Positions 1 through 56,850 of a DNA stretch of 64,000 nt are shown here, one piece after another. The notes below the pieces were generated by a model. The model did not search any database. It saw only the letters and a program-made list of their open reading frames with translations, and was not told the DNA's origin. Both the position numbers and the translations under genes were made by a program. Origin of the DNA: Bidens hawaiensis (Eukaryota > Streptophyta > Magnoliopsida > Asterales > Asteraceae); the NCBI GenBank assembly GCA_021521415.1, contig JAIQDT010003784.1, positions 1 through 64,000 of the forward strand. Direction: 5' to 3'. Each line of letters opens with the position of its first letter. Within the stretch, counting starts at the first letter, position 1.

Positions 1-248
1 GAGCCAATGGTTATAGGGAATTAGGAAACCGACCTAGACTATAACCTAGGATCCTTGACTCTAGATAGCTCATGCATCACAATCACATGTCTACACTTAT
101 ATACGTGCTACGTGCTTATGTGTTGCATATTAACTGTTAATCTCTTGAGTCATGTCATTATGTGTTCTTGGTATAATCTATGTCCTCTATTCATAATCTT
201 TGGCGTGTCATTGATTCTATTTAACGCTCGTTTTTCGTTTTGCGAAGA
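1..248 (+). other. Tekay-A primer-site remnant and 5' leader
   Basis: Bases 1-4 (GAGC) are the 3' end of an initiator-Met-tRNA primer site; the following CCAATGGTTATAGGGAATTA closely matches the bases after the complete primer site of Tekay-B at 12546. The rest is untranslated leader up to the gag ATG. A T-rich stretch ending in AAG lies just before that ATG; it could be a splice acceptor but is weak. Confidence 0.8.
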
Positions 249-3200
249 ATGCCTCCCAGACGTGCACCCGCTTCCATGGACTCCGCTGAATTAGCCAACC
301 TTATAGCCCAGCAGATCGCGGCTGTGTTACCAGGCATGGTAACAACCATCAGCCAAGGGCTGAGGCAAGAAGGAACCTCTGGGGCCAACCAAATTCCAGC
401 TCAGAACGCAAATGAACCAGCTAATAAGCCATACAAGGATTTCATGGTTACCAAACCCACCAGCTTCAGCGGCACAGAAGGCGCCGTTGGTCTCCTCCAG
501 TGGATCGAAAAGATGGAGGCAGCCTTTGTTATTAGCTCGTGCCCTGAGACACTGAAAGTCACGCACGCGGCAAGCATGTTGTCTAAACGCGCGCTGACCT
601 GGTGGAACAACGAGATAAGAACCCGTGGGCGTGAGGCTGCCTTGGCCATGACCTGGTCGGAATTTGTAGCATTGGCTACCCGCGAGTTCGTACCTCGCAG
701 TGAGGTGCAGAAACTTGAAGCTGAGTTTTGGGTACACAAAATGAAGGGCGCCGATCACCAAGGGTACACGGAGCGTTTTCACGAGCTCTCCCTTCTCGTA
801 CCACACTTGGTCACCCCTCCCTCCCGGGCTATTGAGCTTTACATCAATGGCCTACCTGACACTGTCCGTGGAATCGTTATCGGGGCTGACCCATCAACCC
901 TACAAGCGGCCATTGAACTAGCTGCCCGACTGACCCAGGACCAGGTTAAGACTGGGGTCCTAGCCAAAGGTACGGGCAAGGCCGCTGAAGGCTCATCCAA
1001 AAAGATCAACCGCATCAAAAAGCGTAAGGCTAGCAGTTACGCGATGGTTACTCCCGCAACCCCAATCAGCTCTGTCGCTCCTGCTCCCACCCCTTCAGGA
1101 AGGCCAAAGAGGGAGTACACTGGGGTTCACCCCAAGTGCGGCACTTGCCAATTTCATCATCCTGCCGGAACCCCGTGCTGGAAATGCACGAACTGTGGAC
1201 GTTTGGGGCACCTAGCGGAACGCTGCAGATTTCAAGGTAATCAACTGGCGATACAGAGCAGCAGTTCCCAACCCAGCAACTCTCGAAGCTGTTTCGAGTG
1301 TGGAGCCATGGACCATTTCGGGAGCAGGTGTCCTCGTCTTGCAAATCTTCCTCCGGCCCGAGGCCGAGCCTTTACTATTGGCGCTGCTGAAGCTCGCCAA
1401 AATCCTGACGTCATTACTGGTACGTTCATCCTTAACAATCTCTGGGTTTCTATTCTATTTGACACGGGTGCAGATAGGAGTTTTATTTCTAGCGAGTTGG
1501 TCCCATTGCTTAATCTAGGAACCTCTGTCTTAGACCCCGCTTTCTCTGTCGAAATGGCAAACGGAGAGTCTACCCAAGTGAACAAAATCGTTCGCAATTG
1601 CACGCTTACGTTTGATCGGACGTCTCTTAACTTTGACCTCATCCCTATGCATTTAGGAAGTTTCGATGTAATTGTTGGGATGGATTGGTTGTCCATCAAC
1701 CACGCGGAAGTGGTGTGTGCTGAGAAGCTCATTCGCGTTCCTTGTTCTTCTGGCGAGTCCATAATTATTCAAGGAGAAAGATCAGGCAGATGTCTGAAAT
1801 TAATCTCCTGCTTTAAAGCTCGGCGATGCCTTCGAAAGAAGTGTCTCGCCTTCCTAGCTCATGTCTCCATCAAGAAATCTTTGGGGAAGAAGCTCTCCGA
1901 TGTCCCCGTCGTGCGTGAATTTCCAGACGTTTTTCCTAAAGACTTACCCGGACTTCCTCCTAGCCGACAAGTCAAATTCCACATCGAGTTAGTTCCCGGT
2001 GCAACCCCCGTGGCAAAATCTCCGTATCGTTTGGCTCCGTCTGAAATGCAGGAATTATCGAGCCAGCTGCAGGAACTACTGGACAAGGGTTTTATTCGCC
2101 CTAGTTCGTCTCCATGGGGAGCTCCAGTCCTCTTCGTCAAGAAGAAGGACGGATCTTTCCGGATGTGCATAGACTATCGTGAGCTTAACAAACTCACAGT
2201 CAAGAATCGGTATCCATTACCGAGGATTGACGATCTTTTCGACCAGCTGCAAGGAGCCACCTACTTTTCCAAGATCGACCTACGCTCAGGTTATCACCAA
2301 GTGCGTGTCATGGAGGACGACATCGCGAAAACCGCTTTCAGAACTCGATATGGACACTACGAGTTCCTAGTCATGCCTTTTGGTTTGACGAATGCCCCTG
2401 CAGTGTTCATGGATCTCATGAATCGCATTTGTCGTCCATACCTGGACCAGTTTGTTATCGTCTTCATTGACGATATTCTCGTTTATTCCCGCTCTAAAGC
2501 CGACCATGAGCTTCATCTCAGGCTTACCTTGGATCTGCTGAGGAAAGAGCAACTCTACGCCAAATTCTCCAAATGCGAATTCTGGCTAAGGGAAGTTCAA
2601 TTCTTAGGTCACATCATTAACAAGGAAGGCATTCATGTCGACCCTGCCAAGATTGAAGCCATAAAAAAATGGGGAGCGCCTACAACGCCAACCGAAATTC
2701 GTTCATTTCTTGGTTTGGCTGGGTACTACCGTCGATTCATCTCGAACTTTTCAAAGATCGCGTTGCCCCTCACAATGTTAACTCAAAAAGGGGAACCATT
2801 CATTTGGAACCAAGAGCAAGAAGAGGCTTTCCAAACATTGAAACATAAACTCTGCCATGCACCAATCCTGTCGCTTCCTGAGGGTAACGATGATTTTGTT
2901 GTTTATTGCGACGCCTCGAGCCAAGGTCTAGGCTGCGTCTTAATGCAACGCGGTAAGGTCGTCGCTTACGCCTCGCGTCAACTCAAGAGTCATGAGAGGA
3001 ATTATGTCACTCACGACTTGGAATTGGGTGCTGTGGTCTTTGCCTTAAAAATATGGAGACACTACCTATACGGTACGAAATGTGTCATCTTCACCGACCA
3101 CAAGAGCCTACAACACATCCTCAACCAAAGGGAGCTAAATATGCGACAACGTCGATGGGTTGAACTCCTAAGTGACTATGACTGCGAAATCCGCTACCAC

Positions 3201-4709
3201 CCTGGAAAGGCTAACGTAGTGGCTGACGCGTTAAGTCGCAAGGAAAGGACCCAGTTGCATGCGATCCGTATTCAGTCCAATCTTCCCTCCTTGGTTCTTG
3301 AAGCTCAAAAGCAAGCGATTGCTGGTGGTGATCTCAAAAATATGCTATCTTGCGGTGCCGAACGGAAGTTTGAAACCAAGTCTGATGGTATACTTTACTA
3401 CTTAAATCGCATGTGGATTCCAAACTCTGAACCACTTCGAGAACTTATCCTGAACGAAGCGCACAAATCCAGATACTCTATTCACCCGGGCAGTGATAAA
3501 ATTTATCAGAATCTCAAGTCTCATTTCTGGTGGCCGGGTATGAAGAAAGACATAGCTTTATACGTCGGTAAGTGTCTAACATGCTCGCGGATCAAGACTG
3601 AACATCAGAGACCTTCTGGCCTGTTACAAAAACCGATCATACCGCAGTGGAAGTGGGACGAAGTCGCTATGGACTTCATTACCAAACTCCCGCGGACACC
3701 CAGCGGTTATGACACGATTTGGGTTATCGTGGATTACTTGACCAAGTCTGCCCACTTTCTCCCTGTCCGCGAGGACTACACTACGGAGAAGCTGGCGCGG
3801 ATTTACATTCGTGAGATCGTAACCCGTCACGGTGTGCCTAAGGGCATCACGTCTGACCGTGACCCCTCTTTTGCGTCAAGGTTCTGGAAGTCATTTCAGA
3901 AAGCCTTTGGGACAAGTGTGAAACTTAGCTCTGCCTATCATCCTGAAACGGACGGACAGAGCGAAAGGACCATACAAACCCTGGAGGATATGCTCAGAGC
4001 CTGTATCCTTGAATTCGGTAGTAGCTGGGAGACTCACCTTCCTCTTGCAGAGTTCTCATACAATAACAGCTATCATGCTACCATCAAATGCGCGCCATTC
4101 GAAGCACTCTATGGCAGGAAATGTCGTTCTCCACTGTGTTGGTCCGAGACCGGAGATTCTCAAATCCTCGGCCCGGAACTGATACAGGAAACCACTGACA
4201 GTATCGCCATCATTCAGCAAAGACTTAAGGACGCCCGCTGTCGACACAAGTATTACGCTGACAAACGCCGCAAACCTCTGGAGTTCCAAATAGGCGATCA
4301 CGTAATGCTCAAAGTTTCCCCCTGGAAGGGCATTGTTCGCTTCGGGAAAAAGGGAAAGTTTGCTCCAAGGTACGTAGGACCTTTCAAGATCATCGAAAAG
4401 GTCGGACCTGTAGCCTATCGCTTGGAATTGCCTCCAGAACTCAGCCGTGTTCACAACGTTTTTCATGTGTCGCAACTCAAAAAGTGCCTCGTTGACGAGA
4501 CCGCTCAAATCCCGATCGACACGGTTCACATCGACGACAAACTATACTTTGTTGAGGAACCTGTCGAGATCCTAGATCGAGAAGTCAAAAAGACTAAGCG
4601 AAGCCGGATACCTATAGTCAAGGTACGTTGGAACAACCATCGTGGACCCGAGTTCACATGGGAACGAGAGGATAAGATGAAGGAGAAATACCCTCATCTG
4701 TTCGCATAG
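249..4709 (+). CDS. Tekay-A gag-pol polyprotein, intact
   Basis: A 1,486-codon ORF with no interruption. I chose ATG 249 (MPPRRAPA); an in-frame TTG at 240 is not a likely plant start. In order: gag capsid region; two CCHC zinc knuckles (C313-C316-H321-C326 and C348-C361); aspartic protease with DTGA at D405; RT with FIDD at 739-742; RNase H with D888, E925 and D950; integrase with an H-H-C-C zinc finger followed by D1162, D1203 and E1239, the last two separated by 35 residues as in DDE integrases; and a C-terminal chromodomain (about 1430-1486) ending in EKYPHLFA. It makes the capsid and all enzymes for replication; the chromodomain is known in the family to guide insertion to particular chromatin. 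All catalytic residues I checked are present. Confidence 0.96.
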
Positions 4710-5155
4710 TCATCATCTTTGTAATTCTAGAAATCTTGGAGTCTATGTAATCGTAATCATGTAATCAGGGACCAATATCAATTAATGAAGTATCATGTTG
4801 TTCCTATTTGCTTATAAATATTCTCTTATTTGCATAACACCAAGTTTGGCTACCCATGACTCGTGCTGGAAAACACAAGTTGTGCATACTTAATCATGTA
4901 AACATTGGGGTAAACTATGTATCATTGAGCCAAAATTTGTCATCATTCTAACATTCATGAAGCAGGGTTGTGTGTGTGTGTGTGGTGTCGTGTCGATTTT
5001 TCTAGCCGCACACAATGGAGTTTATACATTGATACAAGGTGAACTCGTAATTATAGTCCGGAATATAATAACATCAAGTTCACAGGTGTATACGTGTATA
5101 AACAATATGCTATTGTGTAACTATGAGTCGTGAACTCAAGCTTCGTGTAGGGAAT

Positions 5156-5234
5156 TAATCAATGAATGTTGAAGGAGTGGTGGGTTAGCCGCTGGTACAC
5201 CCTATATATAAACCCCTTCGGCACAAGTTGATTA
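5156..5234 (+). repeat. Core-in-inverted-repeat hairpin, copy 1
   Basis: The conserved core (GGTGGGTTAGCCGC, then TGGTACACCC, then TATATATAAACC) sits between arms GTTGAAGG (5168-5175) and CCTTCGGC (5215-5222), which pair fully if two G-U pairs are allowed. An outer arm TAATCAA (5156-5162) pairs with TTGATTA (5228-5234). Arms differ from those of the other copies. Confidence 0.85.
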
Positions 5235-5317
5235 TGTCTGAAGCGAAACTTGGAATTAGGGACTCATAGTTAGCGTGGCAGCTGTGAGGCGTTAAATTCA
5301 AGAGTTATTGAGGGAAT

Positions 5318-5396
5318 TATTCATTGGAGATTGAAGGAGTGGTGGGTTAGCCGCTGGTACACCCTATATATAAACCCCTTCAATCCGAAATGAATA
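5318..5396 (+). repeat. Core-in-inverted-repeat hairpin, copy 2
   Basis: Same core as copy 1. Inner arms GATTGAAGG (5329-5337) and CCTTCAATC (5377-5385) are exact reverse complements. After a symmetric 3-nt interruption, outer arms TATTCATT (5318-5325) and AATGAATA (5389-5396) also pair exactly. Confidence 0.87.
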
Positions 5397-5485
5397 TGTC
5401 TGATGTAAAGCTTGAAGGTGATGCCTTGTAGTGGAAAATAGTGTGTCGTCCTGTGTGTCATTGAACTAATAGGAGTCGAAAGAAA

Positions 5486-5564
5486 CACCCAAGTGGAGTT
5501 GAGGGAGTGGTGGGTTAGCCGCTGGTACACCCTATATATAAACCCCTTCAACTTGATTTGGGTG
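5486..5564 (+). repeat. Core-in-inverted-repeat hairpin, copy 3
   Basis: Same core. Inner arms AGTTGAGGG (5497-5505) and CCTTCAACT (5545-5553) pair with one G-U. The stem extends outward to CACCCAA (5486-5492) with TTGGGTG (5558-5564), with one mismatch and further G-U pairs between. The arm sequence is again unlike the other copies. Confidence 0.87.
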
Positions 5565-5680
5565 GTATCCAAGACGAATATTAGGGGTAGTGGCGCATAG
5601 TGGTCATCATGGGATCATTTAATCTAAAACATCATTGCATCAACTATACTAAATTCTAAATTTCGGGACGAAATTCCTCT

Positions 5681-5693
5681 AAATTGGGGAGGA
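5681..5693 (+). other. Polypurine tract of Tekay-A
   Basis: AAATTGGGGAGGA directly precedes the TG that starts the 3' LTR. It primes plus-strand DNA synthesis. Confidence 0.88.
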
Positions 5694-5793
5694 TGTAACG
5701 CCCTGAAATTCGATTGGTAAACTAGGATCGTGAAATCATCGGAAACTATAGACTTTGGGATTCTGGACGATAAGTTCGGAACCCATATCATTG

Positions 5794-5822
<29 letters not shown>
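5794..5822 (+). repeat. Poly-A run in Tekay-A LTR
   Basis: 29 consecutive A residues about 100 bp into the LTR, upstream of the TATA-like box. Its exact length may be a sequencing artefact. Confidence 0.9.
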
Positions 5823-5826
<4 letters not shown>

Positions 5827-6055
5827 CTTTTATCATTTAAAATGTTTATTTTATAAAACGACATTTACGCCTGAAAAATATTAATTTTTATGCTTTCGAA
5901 AAATTTAATATTCTTATTTAAAAAGATTTCAAATAATTATTCGGAAAATGGTTTTATAAAAGTTTTGCTGAAAAGGTTTTAGTTTGTTTAAAAACTTATG
6001 AACTCGACTAGTCTTGACCCGTCGGTAGCCTAAACCCGAACCCGAGTCACCCGAG

Positions 6056-6062
6056 TATTTAA
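6056..6062 (+). promoter_or_regulatory. Candidate TATA box of Tekay-A LTR
   Basis: TATTTAA followed by a pyrimidine- and AC-rich leader with GAGAGAGAAA runs, then a donor-like TTCTTG/GTAAGA at 6208-6209. This order resembles a plant gene promoter and 5' UTR. A second TATATATAAA lies inside the hairpin core at 8112-8123, so the start site is not settled. Confidence 0.5.
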
Positions 6063-6480
6063 GCGGAAAATCAAGTATTCTTACACCATCTCTTTCATTT
6101 CCACCAACACTTCCCACCCAAACACTCTCATTCTAGAGAGAGAAACTAGAGAGAGAAAGTCTTCAAACTTCAAATCCGAGTCCACAAATCTGTTTGTTGT
6201 TGTTCTTGGTAAGATCTTCTTGAAAATCATCCATTTTCATAACCATTTTCGGCCTCAAATCGAGCAAAAACACCCATTTTCGTTTCTTGAGTTTTCGGGT
6301 CAAAAACCGTCTTGTTTTGGTGTCAAAATGCAGGCTTTTGTGTTTAAAATCACTGGGAATCGATAGTCCCTTCAATCCCGAGCATTTCCATGTCAAAAAC
6401 TTCGATTTTGGGTCAAAAATCCGGAAAATCTGAAAAACCCGTAGGTTTCTCCGTCGCCCAGCTTGAAGGAGTCGAATCAG

Positions 6481-6812
6481 ACTCATTCGATCGAATCAGT
6501 CGATCGAATCAGCCCATTCGATCGAACCAGTCGATCGAACCAGTCCGGTCGACCGAATAGGAAAGCAACCGAATGGTCTCCAACTCATTCGACCGAATGA
6601 GTTTCGTATTCGATCGAACGAGTGTCTATTCGATCGAACAAGTTCCATGTTCGACCGAACGAGTTTTCCCAACTGGTTCGACCAAATGTGTTTCTAGTTC
6701 GATCGAATGTGTGTCTATTCGATCGAATGTGTGTCTATTCGATCGAATGTGTGTCTATTCGATCGAACAAGTTCCTATTCGATCGAACGTGTTCCTATTC
6801 GATCGAATCAAG
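6481..6812 (+). repeat. Palindromic minisatellite, TCGATCGA word
   Basis: About 330 bp built on the palindrome TTCGATCGAA. Twelve exact TCGATCGA plus several variants (TCGACCGA) occur. Near the end a unit of about 20 bp (ATTCGATCGAATGTGTGTCT) is tandemly repeated. No function is known to me. Confidence 0.9.
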
Positions 6813-7015
6813 CCAGAACCAAGCTGTTTTCGTCTTTAAAACCCAGTTTTTGCTCGAGGTCACGTAAGCTCGTTTTCTTAGACTTATAGCACGTTGTTAA
6901 CCTTATATATATGTCCAACTCTAGGCTAAGGAGATCTATTGTAGCACCATCCTAACCCAAGATCAAGGTGAGTTCATAGCCCCTATTTAAGCTTTTCAAA
7001 ACTATGGGGTGGAAA

Positions 7016-7228
7016 CATGGTAACTTTACACGTTTGGATAAAATCATTTATGCAAACATTCTTTAAACTATAAACATTTGGATTAAACATGGTAACTTTA
7101 CACGTTGGGATAAAATCATTTATGCAAACATTCTTTAAACTATAAACATTTGGATTAAACATGGTAACTTTACACGTTTGGATAAAATCATTTATGCAAA
7201 CATTCTTTAAACTATAAACATTTGGATT
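7016..7228 (+). repeat. 72-bp tandem repeat, three units
   Basis: Units start at 7016, 7088 and 7160, each beginning CATGGTAACTTTACACG and ending with ACATTTGGATT. They are nearly identical, implying recent expansion. Open frames here come from the repeat, not from a gene. Confidence 0.95.
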
Positions 7229-7463
7229 TCTACACACGTGCGGAAATCCACGAGCTTCTTGGTAATCTATAAACTTTGGAAATCTATGAACATGGGGAAA
7301 ACCCATTAACTCATGGAGATCTAAGAACATTGGAAATCAATGAGTATGGGAAATTCTGTGAACATTGACATCATGGGAACGGGAATCAAATTCATATCAT
7401 CATAGTCATTGTGTCAGCATGGAAATCTAGAGATCAAAACATCATGAGTTGAATTGGACGCGA

Positions 7464-7651
7464 GAGTCTATTCTACTCTCGGTAGAACTCACGACCATGA
7501 GTGGCATTCTATTCTCGGTGGCACTCGTAACTCATGGGATTTCATACTAGTCTCGGTGAAATCCATAACTCTTGAGGACCTATACTATTCTCGGTAGGGA
7601 CCAAGGGAACCCAGGATTCTTTGGGGTGTCTATCCTACTCTCGGTAGAACC
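7464..7651 (+). repeat. CTCGG units flanked by complementary arms
   Basis: Five units with a core like TATTCTCGGT at 7464-7490, 7499-7526, 7537-7564, 7576-7602 and 7624-7651. The best is GGATTTCA (7537-7544) with TGAAATCC (7557-7564), a perfect 8-bp arm pair. The second unit has GAGTGGCA against TGGCACTC with one mismatch. Others are weaker. Confidence 0.7.
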
Positions 7652-7737
7652 TAGCTGAGTCCTGGATGGCAAGAACGAGGTAGTCTTGGTTTAAGTCTTG
7701 CGTGAGTTCAATCAAGTCTTGTGTGATCATTGGGTTT

Positions 7738-7776
7738 CATCATCATTCATCATCATCATCATTTGTTCACCATCAT
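7738..7776 (+). repeat. CAT microsatellite
   Basis: Imperfect CAT/ATC trinucleotide run inside the Tekay-A LTR. Confidence 0.85.
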
Positions 7777-8061
7777 CTTGGATACTAGTAAACAATGGGA
7801 TTTTGGTGTTGGTTTATCTAGTAAACTTAGCATGCTCAAATCTATATGTCCTTGTTTATGCTTAACTGTTATGTGCTACATGTACCGTTGGGAGACCGCA
7901 AATCTTTGAGTAATCTTATCACATACGACTCTAATGGGAGATTGATAAGCCCGTTGAGAGCCCAGGAGAACATTTCATGTTTGACTTACTACAAAAACCT
8001 CTGTGGGAAAACCAAGAGATCTTTTCTTACAAACCATTTTAAAAAAACTGGGAATTATACC

Positions 8062-8150
8062 CAAACATAGTAGTATAAGTTGTAGGAGTGGTGGGTTAGC
8101 CGCAGGTACACCCTATATATAAACCCCTACAACCTATACTAGTATGTTTG
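8062..8150 (+). repeat. Core-in-inverted-repeat hairpin, copy 4 (in LTR)
   Basis: Same core with one loop change (GCAGG for GCTGG). Stem: CAAACATA (8062-8069), TAGTATA, GTTGTAGG on the left against CCTACAAC, TATACTA, TATGTTTG (8143-8150) on the right, each block an exact reverse complement, with single mismatches between blocks. This is the longest stem of the four. The core includes TATATATAAA, which could also act as a TATA box. Confidence 0.88.
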
Positions 8151-8660
8151 TGTATAAAACTCTTTTCTTTAAACCTATGAATTCACTCATCTACTTTATG
8201 TAGTTGACAGTTTGTTACATGTTTTCAGGAAATAATGCAGCAAGAAATCCCTAGCAAGTTTAGAGGCCTTAGAAAGATGAAGGCTAGACTAGGAGTTGTT
8301 GAAAACTTGATATTTTGTATTAAAACAATTTGTTTCATGTTACCTGGTTGATGTAATATTTGACATTTTGGTTATGTTTATGCATTTAGACTTTTATACT
8401 ATTGTGCTCAACAATCACGACTTAGTCGCCGCACCTCGATTTTTCCGCCATCACGATCGGGGTGTGACACGAGTCGACTCAAACCGTTGGTGAACGAACA
8501 ATAAATATCATAAACAAGAATGTGATAACTATGTGTTAAGTTATGTGTTACTTGATATTTACGTGTATGAAATTAATTATGAATGGTATTAACTAAGTTG
8601 TGCTAGAAATCGAGTAACTAGAAGTGCAAGGGGTAAAGTGTAACATGTATTATATTTGAT

Positions 8661-18790: not shown

Positions 18791-21700
18791 TGTGACATTC
18801 GCGACAAAACGACGTATACTATATTCAATACGTAGCAAGTAAACGATAAATCGGTTAATTCGTAGTGCTTAAACGAGTAACCGACCGATACTAATTATGA
18901 CCCGTATACATACTGAGGGGTCATATACGAGTTATATATATGTTATAGAGGCTAACATATCGATATTTAGGCCCCAGTACGTTTAAAACTCTTTAAACGA
19001 AAAAGGTTTCGTTTATCGATACGCTATAAGCTTAAACGCAATCGTTAATATCAAAACAAGGATTGTAGCATCCGTTAAGCCGAAAAAGATTTATAAAACA
19101 CTTATATGACATGTTCTAAGCAATCCGTGAAAATATTTTGGAATTTTACAACGAGTCAGTACGTTTTTCTTATTTTACAAAACTAGGCTGAAAAACACTC
19201 GTTTTCGCGCTGGTTTTCGCACTCGAACTAGTTTTCTTGTGAAAAACCGAACCCGAACTAAGTTTTGGACCGACTTTTACGCGTGGCACGAAAACCGAGG
19301 TACCATTGGGCCAAAAGGAGGCCCAATGGGCCCTTATATCCTTGCGGCCGCTAGAAAGGGAATGGACCCCCCTTTTGTTTAGCTTGTTAAATAAGCTAAA
19401 CCTTGAAAATATAAGTTATTCCAAACAAACCCTAGAACCCTCTCACCTGTGTTCTTCAAGTTCCAGCCAAGGTTTGAGGTAAACCATCCAATTTTAATTG
19501 ATTTCATACTTGATTAAGAGAGTTTAACCATGAAAAATTAATCCTTGATTAGTTTTAAACATGTTTAACCATCCAAAAATCATAAAAATCAAGTAAAATC
19601 ATGTTTTGATGTTAAACATATTTACAAACCAGGAACATATACTTTTTGGGTCAAAAACGCGGATTAGAACATGAATACAACGTTTTTACGGTTAGAAAGT
19701 TCGGTTTGAACCCAAAACCGAAACCCTAATTATCAAGGCTGTCACATGGATGATTTATGCTTGTTTTGATGTTATATGATATGTAGATACACTGAGTTTG
19801 TAACCCGATACCCGGAGAGTCGTTTAAGCTAGCAAAACTCATCGAAAACCGACAAGGTAAACCCGTAACACTCGTTTAGGGGCTGTTTAGTATTTGGTTG
19901 TGACGTGCTTGTTGTTAGCTTGTGAAAATTTTCTGGGACATTAGGGATCATATAAATGAGTCCCTGTTCAAATTTGGTAATTTTTCGATAAACGGAGAAT
20001 ATTTGGTGAATTTATTTCCGTTTATGAGCGTTTATTTGGGAAAAATAGCTAAACATATTGAAAAATTATGAAACTTGGTTTTGGAGTTTAATATGTGATG
20101 GTAAGATCACTGGTAAAGTTTTGGGATCATTGGAAATGGCTAAGTATGGTTTGTGCAATTATGGTGTAACCGAATTTTAACAGCCGAAACACGCACAAAA
20201 AGGCATTTTGTCAAAAGAGTTAGGTTCTGGAGATTTTGCAGGGGCTATGTAATAACATTGAGGCCATTTTTAAAAATTATCAGATTTTTCGGAGGTCGTT
20301 TGATATAAATGGGCCATTTATTACACGATTATAACCTAGTAAATGAATTTTTATTAATAAATAATTAATCATAAAATTTCTGAAAATATTTTTATAAAAT
20401 TCTCCATTTCTTAATGTATTTTTAAAAAAATTTACATAATTTATATATAAGTACATATTTAGTTATGATTAATCAAAGATTTAAATTATAATTGTTTTAA
20501 CGAAACCGGCAGTTTTGTGTTTAACGGACTGACTGGTATGTCAAAATGTCAAAAGTGGTCAAATATCATATTTTTGAATGATATTGATAAAAACGAACTT
20601 TTTACGAGAATTCCGGACAATTCGGGTGGATTGTGCGCGTTTTGTATAATCAAACCCGTGTGAAAACGGAAACGAACCCTGCGATCAAACCAGATACCGA
20701 AACCTTAAAATTCTTTCATAAATCAAATCATTTTATCAATCAATATATTTACTTAAGTTTATGTGATCTTACCTAATCCCGATACGCATAAACGATCAAC
20801 TTGGCTAGGCTCGGGAAACGGTGAAACTGAGCCAAATCCAGTTTTAAATATTTCATAGTATACAACGTCACAATCTAAGACTATGGTCATGTTCTGGGCC
20901 TAACAGCTATACCCAGATTATCTATACAGCCCGACTTAGCTTGAACACTGTACTAGTATTAACGATACGAAACCGTTTATAGGAATCAGGCTATAAGCGA
21001 GGCACCTGACTTGTTGATACGTAATTTCCGTGCGAACTACGATAAGGTGAGTTTCACGACCCCCACTTTCTAAACTGTTTTACGAACTTTTGGGGTGAAA
21101 AACATGTTTATATATACTTATATACTTGAAAACGTGTGATGATGTGGATTATCTAAGTACTAACACTTGACAAGTCCCCACAAACACAAGTGATTAACTT
21201 CGTGCCGGTGACGTGTGGATAGTACTATCGGTTTGACAAACCCAACTGACAGGGCTGGAGGGGTATGCCGGAACATATGTAAACCCAGTTGCACATTGTC
21301 ATTATATTTTTACATACTACCATGTGGTGTTAGACATAGTACATACTTGGGGCAAAGTGGTTGTTAAATGCCAACGAGAGTGCATGGGCAGTGGAGGCCA
21401 TGCGTTATAACTCGTTTCGGTTTCACTTGTGGCTTAGTATAATACATCATACACACATATATATATATACATACACATTGTAAACTTTACGAACTCGTGT
21501 ACTGATTTCGTTGATACTCGTGAAACTTGAAACTCACCAACTAGATGTAGTTGACCCGTTTTAACATGCTTTTCAGGTAAAGCAAAAGTGGAATGATTTG
21601 CTTACATGCTTGGTGTTAGAAGGAGAGTTGAATAGCTGTGAATAGACGCAGACATATAATATTAAATAAAAAGCTCGTAAACCGGTTATGTGATGATCAT

Positions 21701-21842
21701 CTAGTTTGTAAACATAGTACCAACCCATGTAATATGATGTAAATTAGTTGTTGAATTTATTTATAAACAATGTTGTTAATACCAGTGTTATCTGTTACAT
21801 TCCCGTATTACGCTTCCGCAACTACCTAGTCGAGGTGTGACA
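18791..21842 (+). repeat. 3' LTR of Tekay-B
   Basis: Starts TGTGACATTCGCG and ends GAGGTGTGACA. Collinear with 9485-12528 over its whole length, with scattered substitutions and small indels. Confidence 0.95.
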
Positions 21843-21847
21843 TTATT
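21843..21847. other. Target-site duplicate TTATT, right of Tekay-B
   Basis: Exact repeat of 9480-9484. Confidence 0.93.
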
Positions 21848-23014
21848 TGACATGTTAGGATTTATTAATAAGAGTAATCTTGTCGAATGAAAATCTGTCT
21901 GGATAGTTTACCTGCTGTATTACTTGAATTGTCATAAAAAGTGCATAACCGATCGATGTTTGCTATGTTTTGACCAAATTGCCCTTGTGGGGGATAATTG
22001 CGAGTAATGTACAATGTTAATATTTGACACTTAAGTAGTTGTTCACGCATGTAACGTATCACCAACGTGTTTGTCGAGTCGCACTTATTTCACAAACGAA
22101 ACACGAAACGCATCTCATGCATAAGTTGTATCTGTCGAGTCTAGGGACTCACTCGTAGTTTAAATACTTAGAAAATCTCGTTTTTGTTTTTAGAACACTA
22201 GTGATGATTTTCTGTGACGCACATCTTTTCTCGGATCTTTTTGGATATCTTCGCAAACAGTGAGTTTCACGGCCCCTTTTACTCTTTTTAACGCTTTTAT
22301 TTGGGGGGAGATAACATACTCCACGCTTTAGATTTTGTTATTCTTTATACATCACTTGTAAGGCTAAGTGGCAAACATACCAACTAAAGTCCTTCATAAC
22401 ATCGAACCGGTTAATATTTTGATAATAGCGAGTCACTGTTGAGTAGTACTACTGGGTTTGACAAACCCCACCCAACTCTAAACTCGACTGTAGGTCGAGT
22501 GGGTGTAATCTTGGCTAACACATTACCATGGTCGTGGTTGACATGGTGGCAAGGAAACTGATAAACAGTCAACTTCGGTGTCGAACATTTAGTAATACAT
22601 GCTTGATAGGTTAGTTACCTATTGATATATATTTGACTTAACACTATCTGGTAACGCAAAACGCAAAACGTAAACGCAAACGCAAACGCTTTATTTATAA
22701 AAACTTGTGAACTCACCAACCCTGTGTTGACACTTTTAGTATGTTATTCTCAGGTAGGACATGCATTCGCTAAACACCATTGTTTTAAAAACTGCTTTTA
22801 ATTTTTGTCTTGACAACTTGTGTTTTTAAGTCGTCCTGTGTGGCGCAACTGTTTTGGTTTACGATTTATGCTTCCGCATTTTTACTTATGACTTGATGTC
22901 TTGGTTATTTGAAAACTTTGTTTATGGTGTTTATATTATAACTAATGATTCCGATCCTGTTAGTTCACACCCTCTGACGGTAAAACTCCGTTAGTGGATT
23001 TTGAGGGTGTGACA
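21848..23014 (+). repeat. LTR X, right piece
   Basis: Continues LTR X after Tekay-B. It has AACA/GTGAGTTTCACGGCCCC at 22260 and TATTCTCAG/G at 22753, matching the donor and acceptor blocks of the Tekay LTRs. A short AAACGCAAACG repeat is near 22655-22690. The end TTGAGGGTGTGACA is followed by no primer site, so this is a solo LTR or a 3' LTR. Confidence 0.7.
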
Positions 23015-54506: not shown

Positions 54507-54745
54507 TCGCGATATGCGATGAGCCTAGACATAGCCGTCGCGTATCGCGACGTAGCTATGGTGAGTCGCAGGTAGGTTTGCCACGTGGTGCCACGTGGCA
54601 GGACACGTGTCACAATGTCATGGCTTTATGCCATGTGGTGACACGTGTTAGCTGGTGTGCCACGTGGCATGACAAGTGTCTGGTTTTCAGACATCTCCAT
54701 CGCGATACGCGATGGCGTTGCGCCCAAGTACGTCGCGTATCGCGA
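54507..54745 (-). repeat. Four TCGCGATAYGCGA near-palindromes
   Basis: At 54507-54519, 54538-54550, 54700-54712 and 54733-54745, alternating TCGCGATAYGCGA with its reverse complement TCGCGTATCGCGA. They flank the G-box cluster upstream of the TATA box. Confidence 0.9.
54581..54667 (-). promoter_or_regulatory. G-box (CACGTG) cluster upstream of LTR Y promoter
   Basis: Five CACGTG cores in 87 bp: CCACGTGG at 54581, 54591 and 54660; ACACGTGT at 54603 and 54641. These are binding sites of plant bZIP/bHLH factors (light, abscisic acid and stress responses). They lie about 95-180 bp upstream of the minus-strand TATA box. Confidence 0.7.
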
Positions 54746-55191: not shown

Positions 55192-56070
55192 ATTCATGTT
55201 AGGATTGTTCTTGAGTATGTTACTATTGTGTCAAAAAATGTTTTTATATCAAATTTCATTCTCAAATGAAATGTTCTCAGAAAATTTTACTCAAAACATT
55301 TTTGACAAAACAAAGCAAGTTGATATGGTGTTTGAGATATGATAAGACTATTAAGTTAAAAGCTTTGTAGAAGCTTAAAAAAGGTTTTTCCATGAAAATT
55401 GATCCAACCTCTGGGAAATGATACTAGATTGGTTACTTATGCCAATCATATGGATTTAATAGGCTAAAAAGACTATTAGTTATTCATGTTATGATTGATC
55501 TTGAGTATGTTACTTACTGTTGTGTCAAAATATGTTTTTGTGTCAAATTGCATGCTCAAATGAAATGTTATCAAGAAAATTTTACTAAAACATTTTTGAC
55601 AAAACAAAGCAAGTTGATATGGTGTTTGAGATATGATAAGACTATTCAGTTAAAAGCTTTGTAGAAGCTTAAAAAAGGTTTTTCAATGAAAATTGATCCA
55701 ACCTCTGGGAAATGATACTAGATTGGTTACTTATGCCAATCATATGGATTTAATAGGCTAAAAAGACTACTAATCATTCATGTTATGACTGTTCTTGAGT
55801 ATGTTACTTACTGTTGTGTCAAAATATGTTTTTGTGTTAAATTGCATGCTCAAATGAAATGTTATCAAGAAAATTTTACTCAAAACATTTTTGACAAAAT
55901 AGAGCAAGTTGATATGGTGTTTGAGATATGATAAGACTATTCAGTTAAAAGCTTTGTAGAAGCTTAAAAAAGGTTTTTCAATGAAAATTGATCCAACCTC
56001 TGGGAAATGATACTAGATTGGTTACTTATGCCAATCATATGGATTTAATAGGCTAAAAAGACTAATAGTC
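55192..56070 (+). repeat. 290-295-bp tandem repeat, three units
   Basis: Units begin ATTCATGTTA at 55192, 55482 and 55776. Each contains AAACATTTTTGACAAAA, AAGCTTTGTAGAAGCTTAAA and AATTGATCCAACCTCTGGG. copia-1 has a single equivalent of the last part near 31390-31450, so copia-2 expanded it. Confidence 0.93.
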
Positions 56071-56084
56071 ATTCAAAGCAAGTT

Positions 56085-56850
56085 GATATGTATGGTTACT
56101 TTCCATGATGTGTAAAAATTGAGGTGATATAAACATAATGAAAATGCTAAACTTAATGTGGAGATACATTGTCGAATATGCATGTTCCAATATACATCTT
56201 TCCGCATGATAGGCAGAAAAGTGATTATCCAGTCATACACGAGCCTTTTGGTATTTGGTCACCAAAAATGAATCATCTTACGAAAATGGCAAAGCTCAAA
56301 TGTGAACAAAAATGTTATCTTTATTCAACCAAAAGTTGATCTATGTTCACAAATTTTGAAAGAAAATCCAAACATGAGGTTTAATATAGAACTACAGGGT
56401 TGGAGGCAATCATATAAGTCCTTCAACATTCCGAATGAAAGGCCTTTAAGTCCGAACTGCGTGACATGTAAGTTCAACATTCAACCTCATATATGTTTGA
56501 AGTCTTAAAAAGAAAATTCAATAAATTTAAATGTTTTGTCATAAAAATATTTGACCAAATAACAGGGAGTCGGAGTCAGTTCGGGGTGATCTGGAGAAGG
56601 TCAAATAATCCTTGAGAATAGAAATGGAGCATCATAGCACAATATGTGTTATCCATTTTTGTCTTAAGCAAACTAATTAAACTTTAATCATATCACCAAT
56701 ATATAATGAAATTCATGCTAAGTCTAGACCTGCTATTAACCTGCCTGATTAGTCACAATAATGCTAAGAATGAAGTATTGAAATGTGACTTAATCAATAT
56801 GATCCCATGTTGAGATCTTTTCACAAAAGGAAAGAAAATATTTTGGAAAG
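56085..56850 (+). other. Conserved post-pol non-coding block of copia-2
   Basis: Homologous to 31510-32270 of copia-1 (for example TAAACTTAATGTGGAGA, GATAGGCAGAAAAG, CAGTCATACAC, GGTCACCAAAAAT, AGAACTACAG, GGGGTGATCTGG). The 68-codon frame at 56302 is not supported as a gene because the frame is not kept in copia-1. Confidence 0.85.

Follow-up and report, generated by a model that had tools for sequence, protein, structure and literature searches.

Retroviral packaging and dimerisation hairpins (psi/DIS), which are read by Gag, have fixed loops and freer stems. In the constitutive transport elements, such as the CTE of MPMV and the gamma-CTE of MLV, a structured RNA exports the intron-containing genomic RNA of a retroelement, and MLV uses several scattered elements of this kind (PMC7551171). 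In plants, a functional ENE hairpin in the spacer between ORF and LTR of Evade, an Arabidopsis Copia93 element, acts on the element RNA (PMC12501189), and a comparative-genomics screen has yielded 16 structured-RNA candidates with modest covariation, some of them tied to splicing (PMC12218528). The latter study resembles ours in dealing with covarying RNA elements in plant transcripts; words beginning with transpos, gypsy or repeat are absent from its main text. A search of the literature, including the accessible portions of these three papers and of PMC3735527, returned no recognised description of the hairpin element reported here, and the core sequence strings occurred in no paper of the literature searched.

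The hairpins belong to a Ty3/gypsy LTR retrotransposon with a host that is probably a member of the Asteraceae; the features of the element in the window (the whole stretch of 64,000 nucleotides that was analysed) are collected in Table 1. The 5' LTR of this element falls outside the window. Three hairpin units occupy the spacer from gag-pol to the 3' LTR, in a position equivalent to that described for the Evade ENE in the available text, and the fourth lies within the LTR. The array that holds the first three has diverged, its later copies being 80% and 63% identical to the first over 120 nt. The retrotransposon itself went unrecognised in the first-pass annotation, which had been made from the same letters.

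Table 1. Features of the host retrotransposon and its hairpins, in window coordinates.
Feature	Position	Strand	Details
gag-pol frame of the Ty3/gypsy element, unbroken	225..4709	+	1494 aa, stop to stop
Further long hairpin, predicted, in the spacer	5010..5119	+	unrelated loop
Diverged tandem array holding units 1-3	5133..5582	+	spacing 162 and 168 nt
Hairpin unit 1	5152..5238	+	left arm 5152-5175, core 5176-5214, right arm 5215-5238
Hairpin unit 2	5314..5400	+	left arm 5314-5337, core 5338-5376, right arm 5377-5400
Hairpin unit 3	5482..5568	+	left arm 5482-5505, core 5506-5544, right arm 5545-5568
3' LTR, TGTAAC...GTGACA	5694..8469	+	from the window sequence; the two LTRs of a different copy align with 5692-8469
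Splice-donor-like motif AAGGTGAGTT in the LTR	6965..6974	+	GT at 6968; motif only
Hairpin unit 4, in the LTR	8056..8156	+	core 8087-8125, arms as counted 8063-8086 and 8126-8149; predicted stem reaching 8056-8156
Branch-point-like and acceptor-like motifs 3' of unit 4	8204..8229	+	TTGAC 8204-8208, TTTTCAGG 8222-8229; motif only

The four units and their shared core are present as first described: an exact 14-mer of the core occurs at 5179, 5341, 5509 and 8090, with 0.06 occurrences expected by chance, and no fifth copy is found in the window at up to 2 mismatches. The core is 39 nt long and identical in units 1-3 (39/39), while the flanks and arms of these units are 24-79% identical; its sole change is the GCT to GCA loop variant in unit 4, again as claimed. 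The pairing of the arms within each unit is likewise borne out, being gapless and in register over 19, 19, 21 and 22 of the 24 positions of the counted arms (the predicted stem of unit 4 reaches beyond these), and the best partner of each left arm among the units is its own right arm. Pairing of at least 19/24 at a spacing of 39 nt occurs at 22 of 63914 window positions, the four units included. The statement that the arms differ completely between units is wrong, as between units 1 and 2 the arms agree at 19/24 and 16/24 positions; these two units also keep a three-by-three mismatch region at the same place, and the innermost arm pairs are common to the units.

The same fold is predicted on the + strand for all four units (z from -3.3 to -5.6). 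In this fold the core forms an asymmetric internal loop, a short inner helix and a variable triloop, its unpaired strands being AGUGGU and UAUAUAUAAACC, without a U tract, and it contains the self-complementary UAUAUAUA. The inner helix stays at the level of prediction, because it is invariant among the four units and hardly varied elsewhere. The - strand is less stable than the + strand in three of the four units by energy and in two by z-score, units 2 and 4 having the stronger z-scores on the - strand.

Matches to the core with up to 3 mismatches are found at 6281 places in the host genome, and a reversed-pattern control gave none. From these copies we took a non-random sample of 45 distinct hairpins. 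The sampled copies sit at homologous positions within one retrotransposon lineage or in its tandem arrays; the LTR holds one to three units and the 3' spacer three or four, and full-length and gag-only elements carry them alike. The gag-only element L055, for example, has identical LTRs with 2 units in each and 4 more in the spacer, 8 units in total; that it retains them bears only indirectly on the idea of a Gag packaging signal. It had been foreseen that arms elsewhere in the genome might turn out to be non-complementary, or identical merely by descent; instead, complementary arms in register (at least 15/24 pairs) are kept in 42 of the 45 sampled hairpins. The constancy of the core among them is partly a matter of ascertainment, because the copies were found by their core, and within it UAUAUAUA is altered in 5/42 hairpins (to UAUACAUA in 4 and to UGUAUAUA in 1).

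Among the four window units, 12 of the 24 arm pairs show change on both sides, a value matched by none of 500 shuffles, and pairing falls from 88% to 38-47% when the arms are slid by 1-3 columns. In the 42 hairpins 81.2% of arm cells are paired, as compared with 34-46% after sliding and 66% after shuffling (shuffle maximum 68.6%). Compensatory changes occur within orthologous hairpins too: in a group of 15 LTR orthologues, 8 pairs have both-sided change (reached in 2/500 shuffles) and the covariation score is 0.167 versus 0.083 (0/500 shuffles), while the number of further pair types, 11, is below the 13.4 of the shuffles, 497/500 of which are at least as high. The window units taken alone, with 7 G-U versus 3 A-C pairs, say little about the strand. 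Single-step departures from Watson-Crick pairing, read on the sense strand, comprise 17 G-U versus 6 A-C at helix positions (p 0.017), and 19 versus 10 over all positions, where the difference is only marginal (p 0.068). With arms complementary in register and compensatory changes among orthologues, the RNA structure of the hairpins is well supported, and selection on it is the best supported of the readings offered in the first-pass annotation.

As judged from motifs, the LTR may contain a leader intron with unit 4 inside it. The donor and acceptor motifs are present in all six LTR loci checked, and in each of these the nearest unit ends 103-111 nt upstream of the acceptor-like motif. In the best 30 alignments between L055 and the window, the predicted intron is covered only around the hairpin and the acceptor, plus about 20 nt at the intron start, the longest such alignment among these 30 being window 8022-8233 at 80% identity. 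The U content of the predicted intron does not clearly exceed that of its flanks. About 2 kb upstream of unit 4, at 6056, there is a TATA-like TATTTAAG with a pyrimidine-rich stretch after it, and we therefore take unit 4, by motif only, to be transcribed; exact TATTTAAG is absent from L055. A role of unit 4 as the LTR promoter, despite its TATATATAAA, was rejected, the unit lying deep in the LTR. The same splice-like signals recur in a second Ty3 family of the window (LTR 18791-21850); the core is absent from it, and its best intron fold has a z-score of only -1.9.

Outside the host genome, exact searches with the core gave 0 matches in collections of viral and genome contigs, and pol searches of the viral contigs brought up no confirmed relative. 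Four Ty3 stretches in bacterial assemblies (L001-L004) yielded no core: it is absent from the end portions of L001 and L002 that were read, a pattern search gave only chance-like partial core matches among the matches listed, and a covariance model built from the window units matched none of the stretches, its 7 hits being those four units themselves plus the reverse strands of three. With Rfam 15 no family reaches its gathering score anywhere in the window, the best permissive matches scoring 18.8 bits against 62 needed (5100-5620) and 18.6 against 60 (7990-8260); a ribozyme was rejected, as none appears at gathering score or among the permissive matches.

These hairpins share with the psi/DIS signals a fixed loop on a freer stem, but here the copies lie in a predicted leader intron and a 3' spacer. 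The likeness to the constitutive transport elements, as far as the cited account extends, is that of a conserved unpaired motif (here in a predicted fold) on a stem outside the coding frame of a retroelement, and the hairpins may act on unspliced RNA; the gamma-CTE differs in that its AAGACA is absent from the 39-nt core, whose sequence is unrelated and which belongs to a plant Ty3 element. To our knowledge, plants seem to be without an obvious NXF1. We tentatively propose, at somewhat less than an even chance, cis-acting protein-docking RNA hairpins of one plant Ty3/gypsy lineage, most likely marking unspliced genomic RNA for export or packaging. In this model the stem, 20-30 bp long, varies in sequence but stays paired, and would present the near-fixed core on the sense RNA; several copies would be used, those of the LTR inside the predicted leader intron and the others in the 3' spacer; the protein docking on the cores could be Gag or a host factor involved in export or splicing, and the array would so tag the full-length unspliced RNA. 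The reasoning is that leader splicing would remove the LTR copies, and that full-length and gag-only elements would both need such a tag. In a more specific form, possible though on balance doubtful, interchangeable hairpins with one fixed docking core would constitute a modular identity tag of unspliced RNA, for whose reader full elements and gag-only parasites compete. We know of no earlier tag of this kind in plant LTR retrotransposons.

Other functions at the RNA level have to be weighed against this proposal. The hairpin might directly control splicing of the leader intron by masking or presenting the 3' splice site, so that part of the RNA stays unspliced, the spacer copies being amplified bystanders or acting on other sites. 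The spacing of 103-111 nt before the acceptor-like motif agrees with such control, as does the fact that, of the whole predicted intron, the segment from hairpin to acceptor is the best kept in the two families compared; yet three or four copies sit in the spacer, where no clear splice sites are seen by eye, and the second Ty3 family has its splice-like signals without the core. We consider this account unlikely. We see a minor chance for an RNA element that protects poly(A), enhances translation or, through the self-complementary UAUAUAUA, promotes dimerisation, without any role in export or packaging. The functional ENE in the equivalent spacer of Evade (PMC12501189) lends this some plausibility. 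However, an ENE, in the available description, needs opposed U-rich internal-loop strands that clasp poly(A); the core has none, and was therefore rejected as an ENE, and the hairpins here, unlike that of Evade, are repeated three or four times in the spacer and are also found in the LTR. For dimerisation, the changes of UAUAUAUA in 5/42 hairpins are unfavourable. A precursor of small RNAs, with miRNA-like hairpins, is very improbable: the stem length resembles that of plant pre-miRNAs and there are weak, sub-threshold Rfam miRNA matches, but no family at gathering score, and the loop side is conserved while the arms vary, the reverse of what is expected of miRNAs, on which ground a microRNA precursor was rejected.

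At the DNA level, hairpin-templated correction during reverse transcription or replication could maintain arm complementarity with no RNA function involved. Four double changes, each from one paired state to another, separate units 1 and 2, and three of these changes would need mismatched intermediates if they arose stepwise, and folding of DNA would be symmetric, in keeping with the antisense z-scores of units 2 and 4, which exceed the sense ones. Templating leaves unexplained, however, a constant unpaired core amid diverged flanks; the mismatch region of units 1 and 2 persists in place; G-U outnumbers A-C on one strand (17:6 at helix positions, 19:10 overall); and of 13 double changes within groups 11 are of transition type, to which mutation bias could nevertheless add. 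Templated repair, already considered in the first-pass annotation, may contribute, but does not by itself account for the core, and as the whole explanation it is improbable. The tiny mobile core inserting into palindromes, also suggested there, can be dismissed almost entirely: one core is indeed found within different arms, but the arms evolve together with the unit, and the sampled copies are at homologous sites of one retrotransposon lineage or in tandem. A MITE or foldback transposon was rejected on the same placement of the copies, and with the arms being the variable part.

In many plants a large share of the genome consists of LTR retrotransposons, and how the full-length RNA of these elements is distinguished, exported and packaged is hardly known. 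The docking protein that we infer for the cores could be sought with the element itself, as a strongly covarying RNA present at thousands of genomic places is a bait for a reader protein, and its genomic copies are a natural mutational series with which such a reader can be tested. The motifs of the plant screen, in the part of that report available, show only modest covariation (PMC12218528), as against the strong covariation of the hairpins described here; the latter suggest that repeats of plant genomes can harbour well-supported structured RNAs.

The 39-nt core, AGTGGTGGGTTAGCCGC[T/A]GGTACACCCTATATATAAACC, stands at four places in the window with a single variable position, in agreement with the near-constant core described in the first-pass annotation; a 14-mer from it occurs at these four places, and no further occurrence was found in the window within 2 mismatches. 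The arm complementarity claimed for each unit is also borne out, as the 24-nt arms pair without gaps at 19, 19, 21 and 22 of 24 positions in units 1 to 4, respectively, and the best partner of every left arm is its own right arm. As a control for chance, pairing of at least 19/24 at equal spacing was found at 22 of 63914 window positions, units 1-4 included. Among the four sequences both sides change in 12/24 arm pairs; over all 31 pairs 88% of the cells are paired. Shuffles give 77% (0/500), and a shift of 1-3 columns lowers pairing to 38-47%. RNAfold gives one common fold of the sense strand in 4/4 units (z = −3.3, −3.8, −4.6, −5.6). For the antisense strand the z values of units 1-4 are −2.0, −4.1, −1.6 and −6.2, with energies weaker than those of the sense strand in units 1-3 and slightly stronger in unit 4.

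Features of the window, with the hairpin units, their host element and other repeats
Feature	Position	Description
gag-pol open frame	225-4709	1494 aa; Gag, protease, RT, RNase H, integrase domains; Ty3/gypsy
Further hairpin	5010-5119	Long, imperfect, in ORF-LTR spacer; loop unrelated; fold of 4990-5140 −38 kcal/mol, z −2.6
Cores of units 1-3	start 5176, 5338, 5506	Diverged tandem array between the 1494-aa frame and the 3' LTR
3' LTR	5694-8469	Holds unit 4
Palindromic repeats	6480-6820	~300 nt, TTCGATCGAA-type, in LTR; strong self-folding
Predicted leader intron	6968-8228	In LTR
Tandem repeat	7013-7228	72 nt x3, within predicted LTR intron
Core of unit 4	start 8087	
Second Ty3 LTR	18791-21850	
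Inverted repeats	54576-54700	CACGTG-rich, unrelated to the hairpin finding; among the window's strongest local RNA folds (z ~ −9 to −10, simple shuffle score)
Tandem repeat	55220-56102	294 nt x3

Nearly all named proteins among the 120 listed (7991 scored) that resemble the gag-pol frame are from Asteraceae (Centaurea, Tanacetum, Smallanthus, Mikania, Tagetes); the remainder include rice and Paspalum. A second genome copy of the element (loci L057/L058), which is recent given that its LTRs are 99.96% identical, has an ORF equal in length to that of the window; its units lie in the 5' LTR, the spacer (three units) and the 3' LTR (one unit).

Across the 3.47-Gb genome, 3029 + 3252 places match a 35-place core pattern with at most 3 mismatches, and 2102 + 2248 match a second pattern, with loop GAT, at no more than 1 mismatch (0 in the control for each, the pattern being reversed in the first case); the two sets overlap and their counts are not additive. 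Our sample, 30 loci per search out of longer lists plus 24 chosen regions, many of them near listed places, is not random; since copies were found through the core, its constancy among them is partly a selection effect, even if diverged cores beside good ones (up to 9 substitutions) were still captured. The sample holds 45 distinct hairpins (24+39+24), which arm similarity divides into an LTR group (n = 16) and nine others (n = 5, 9, 6, 2, 2, 2, 1, 1, 1); one of these nine is a shifted LTR unit, whereas the others are spacer units. The genome copies had been proposed as the check on whether arms are complementary, and 42/45 are paired in register at 15/24 or more. The other three (14, 10 and 6 of 24), each of which shows a one-base shift by eye, were left out of the counts, a rule that biases toward pairing; with all 45 included, 849/1080 arm cells (79%) are paired. 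In the 42 kept hairpins 81.2% of 1008 arm cells are paired, 68 of them as G-U, against 34-46% when slid and a mean of 66.1% (maximum 68.6%, 0/500) in shuffles, and both sides change in 21/24 pairs. When left arms are combined with right arms from different groups, 62.5% of cells are paired. Taken by itself, the LTR group (15 of the 16 distinct sequences in it) still shows covariation, with both-sided change in 8/24 arm pairs (2/500) and a covariation score of 0.167 vs 0.083 (0/500). Counting against covariation, further pair types number 11, below the 13.4 of shuffles, 497/500 of which reach at least this value.

Hairpin-templated repair, acting on DNA, could also keep arms complementary. Pairing in the RNA is favoured by the unpaired core, which units 1-3 share at 39/39 positions against 24-79% identity in their flanks and arms, and by single-step departures from Watson-Crick pairing in orthologous groups, which are G-U 17 times vs A-C 6 at helix positions (p = 0.017), that is, omitting five positions unpaired in the predicted folds of units 1 and 2; over all 24 positions the numbers are 19 vs 10 (p = 0.068), the two counts coming from a single analysis. 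These p-values count one event per pair type per group and are not phylogenetic, and the window alone (7 vs 3) gives numbers too small to discriminate. Within groups, 11/13 double Watson-Crick changes are of transition type, passable via G-U, although mutation bias could contribute; between units 1 and 2, on the contrary, 3/4 double changes are not of this type, which is a point against RNA. On the sequence comparisons, the core, the G-U excess and the transition-type changes speak for RNA-level pairing over DNA repair.

The donor pattern AGGT[AG]A[GC]T has one match in each of the two window LTRs, whose closest match to each other is a branch-point/acceptor-like segment ending TTTTCAGG; the second LTR has one additional acceptor-like site. 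From these motifs a leader intron is predicted in the 3' LTR; base composition does not distinguish it (T 0.32 vs 0.30 and 0.34 in the flanks). All 6/6 lineage loci examined (L057/L058, L055, L056, L059, L062, L082) contain donor AAGGTGAGTTCAT together with the acceptor segment, the latter matched in one of two LTRs in L056; in these loci the core of the nearest unit ends 103-111 nt upstream of the AG, L082 having three units upstream of the acceptor. In the window the distance to the AG is 103 nt for the core and 72 nt for the stem. Like signals, without the hairpin core, occur in the second Ty3 LTR and at L004:2895-3575 (donor and TTTTCAGG 673 nt apart); as two core-less Ty3 LTRs share them, leader introns inside the LTRs of such elements may be widespread. 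L004 is one of four Ty3/gypsy stretches of plant look in bacterial records (L001-L004; assemblies of Mycobacterium sp. and Labilibacter sediminis), probably contamination; in L002 donor and acceptor-like site are just 24 nt apart, and no donor or acceptor signals were found in L001 and L003. In the barley element BARE, splicing separates RNA pools (PMC3735527), a parallel to the predicted intron rather than evidence for the window element.

The nearest system in position is the Evade ENE (PMC12501189), whose defining U-rich strands the hairpin core lacks, and the nearest in logic are the retroviral CTEs (PMC7551171), from which the hairpin differs in motif and may differ in partner; for these reasons it is assigned to neither. 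The element has no match in Rfam and no description of it was found in the open-access papers searched, and by these two sources it is undescribed.

The hairpin is repeated, keeps its pairing, its fixed core and its sense orientation, and is present in both full-length and gag-only elements. The gag-only element L055 (1632-9095) has LTRs of 2315 bp, with 100% identity between the two, around an inside of 2.8 kb, too short for a full pol, with a single sense frame of at least 180 codons, a 454-aa Gag (Retrotrans_gag, zinc knuckle) with 54% identity to the window Gag over 396 aligned positions; it carries 2 units per LTR and 4 in the spacer. L056, of the same layout (460-aa frame), is 94% identical to it over 2.9 kb and has LTRs ~98.7% identical, so that both elements are recent. 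The stem may act as a stand and the core as a docking site, with multiple copies providing avidity. With hairpins in the intron and the 3' spacer, unspliced RNA would hold the full set, and its export or packaging would be their simplest use, a reading to which we give slightly less than an even chance; splicing control, RNA stability, translation and dimerisation are possible other uses. That a pol-less family retains and multiplies the hairpins argues that they act in cis in RNA handling, rather than being a by-product of coding.
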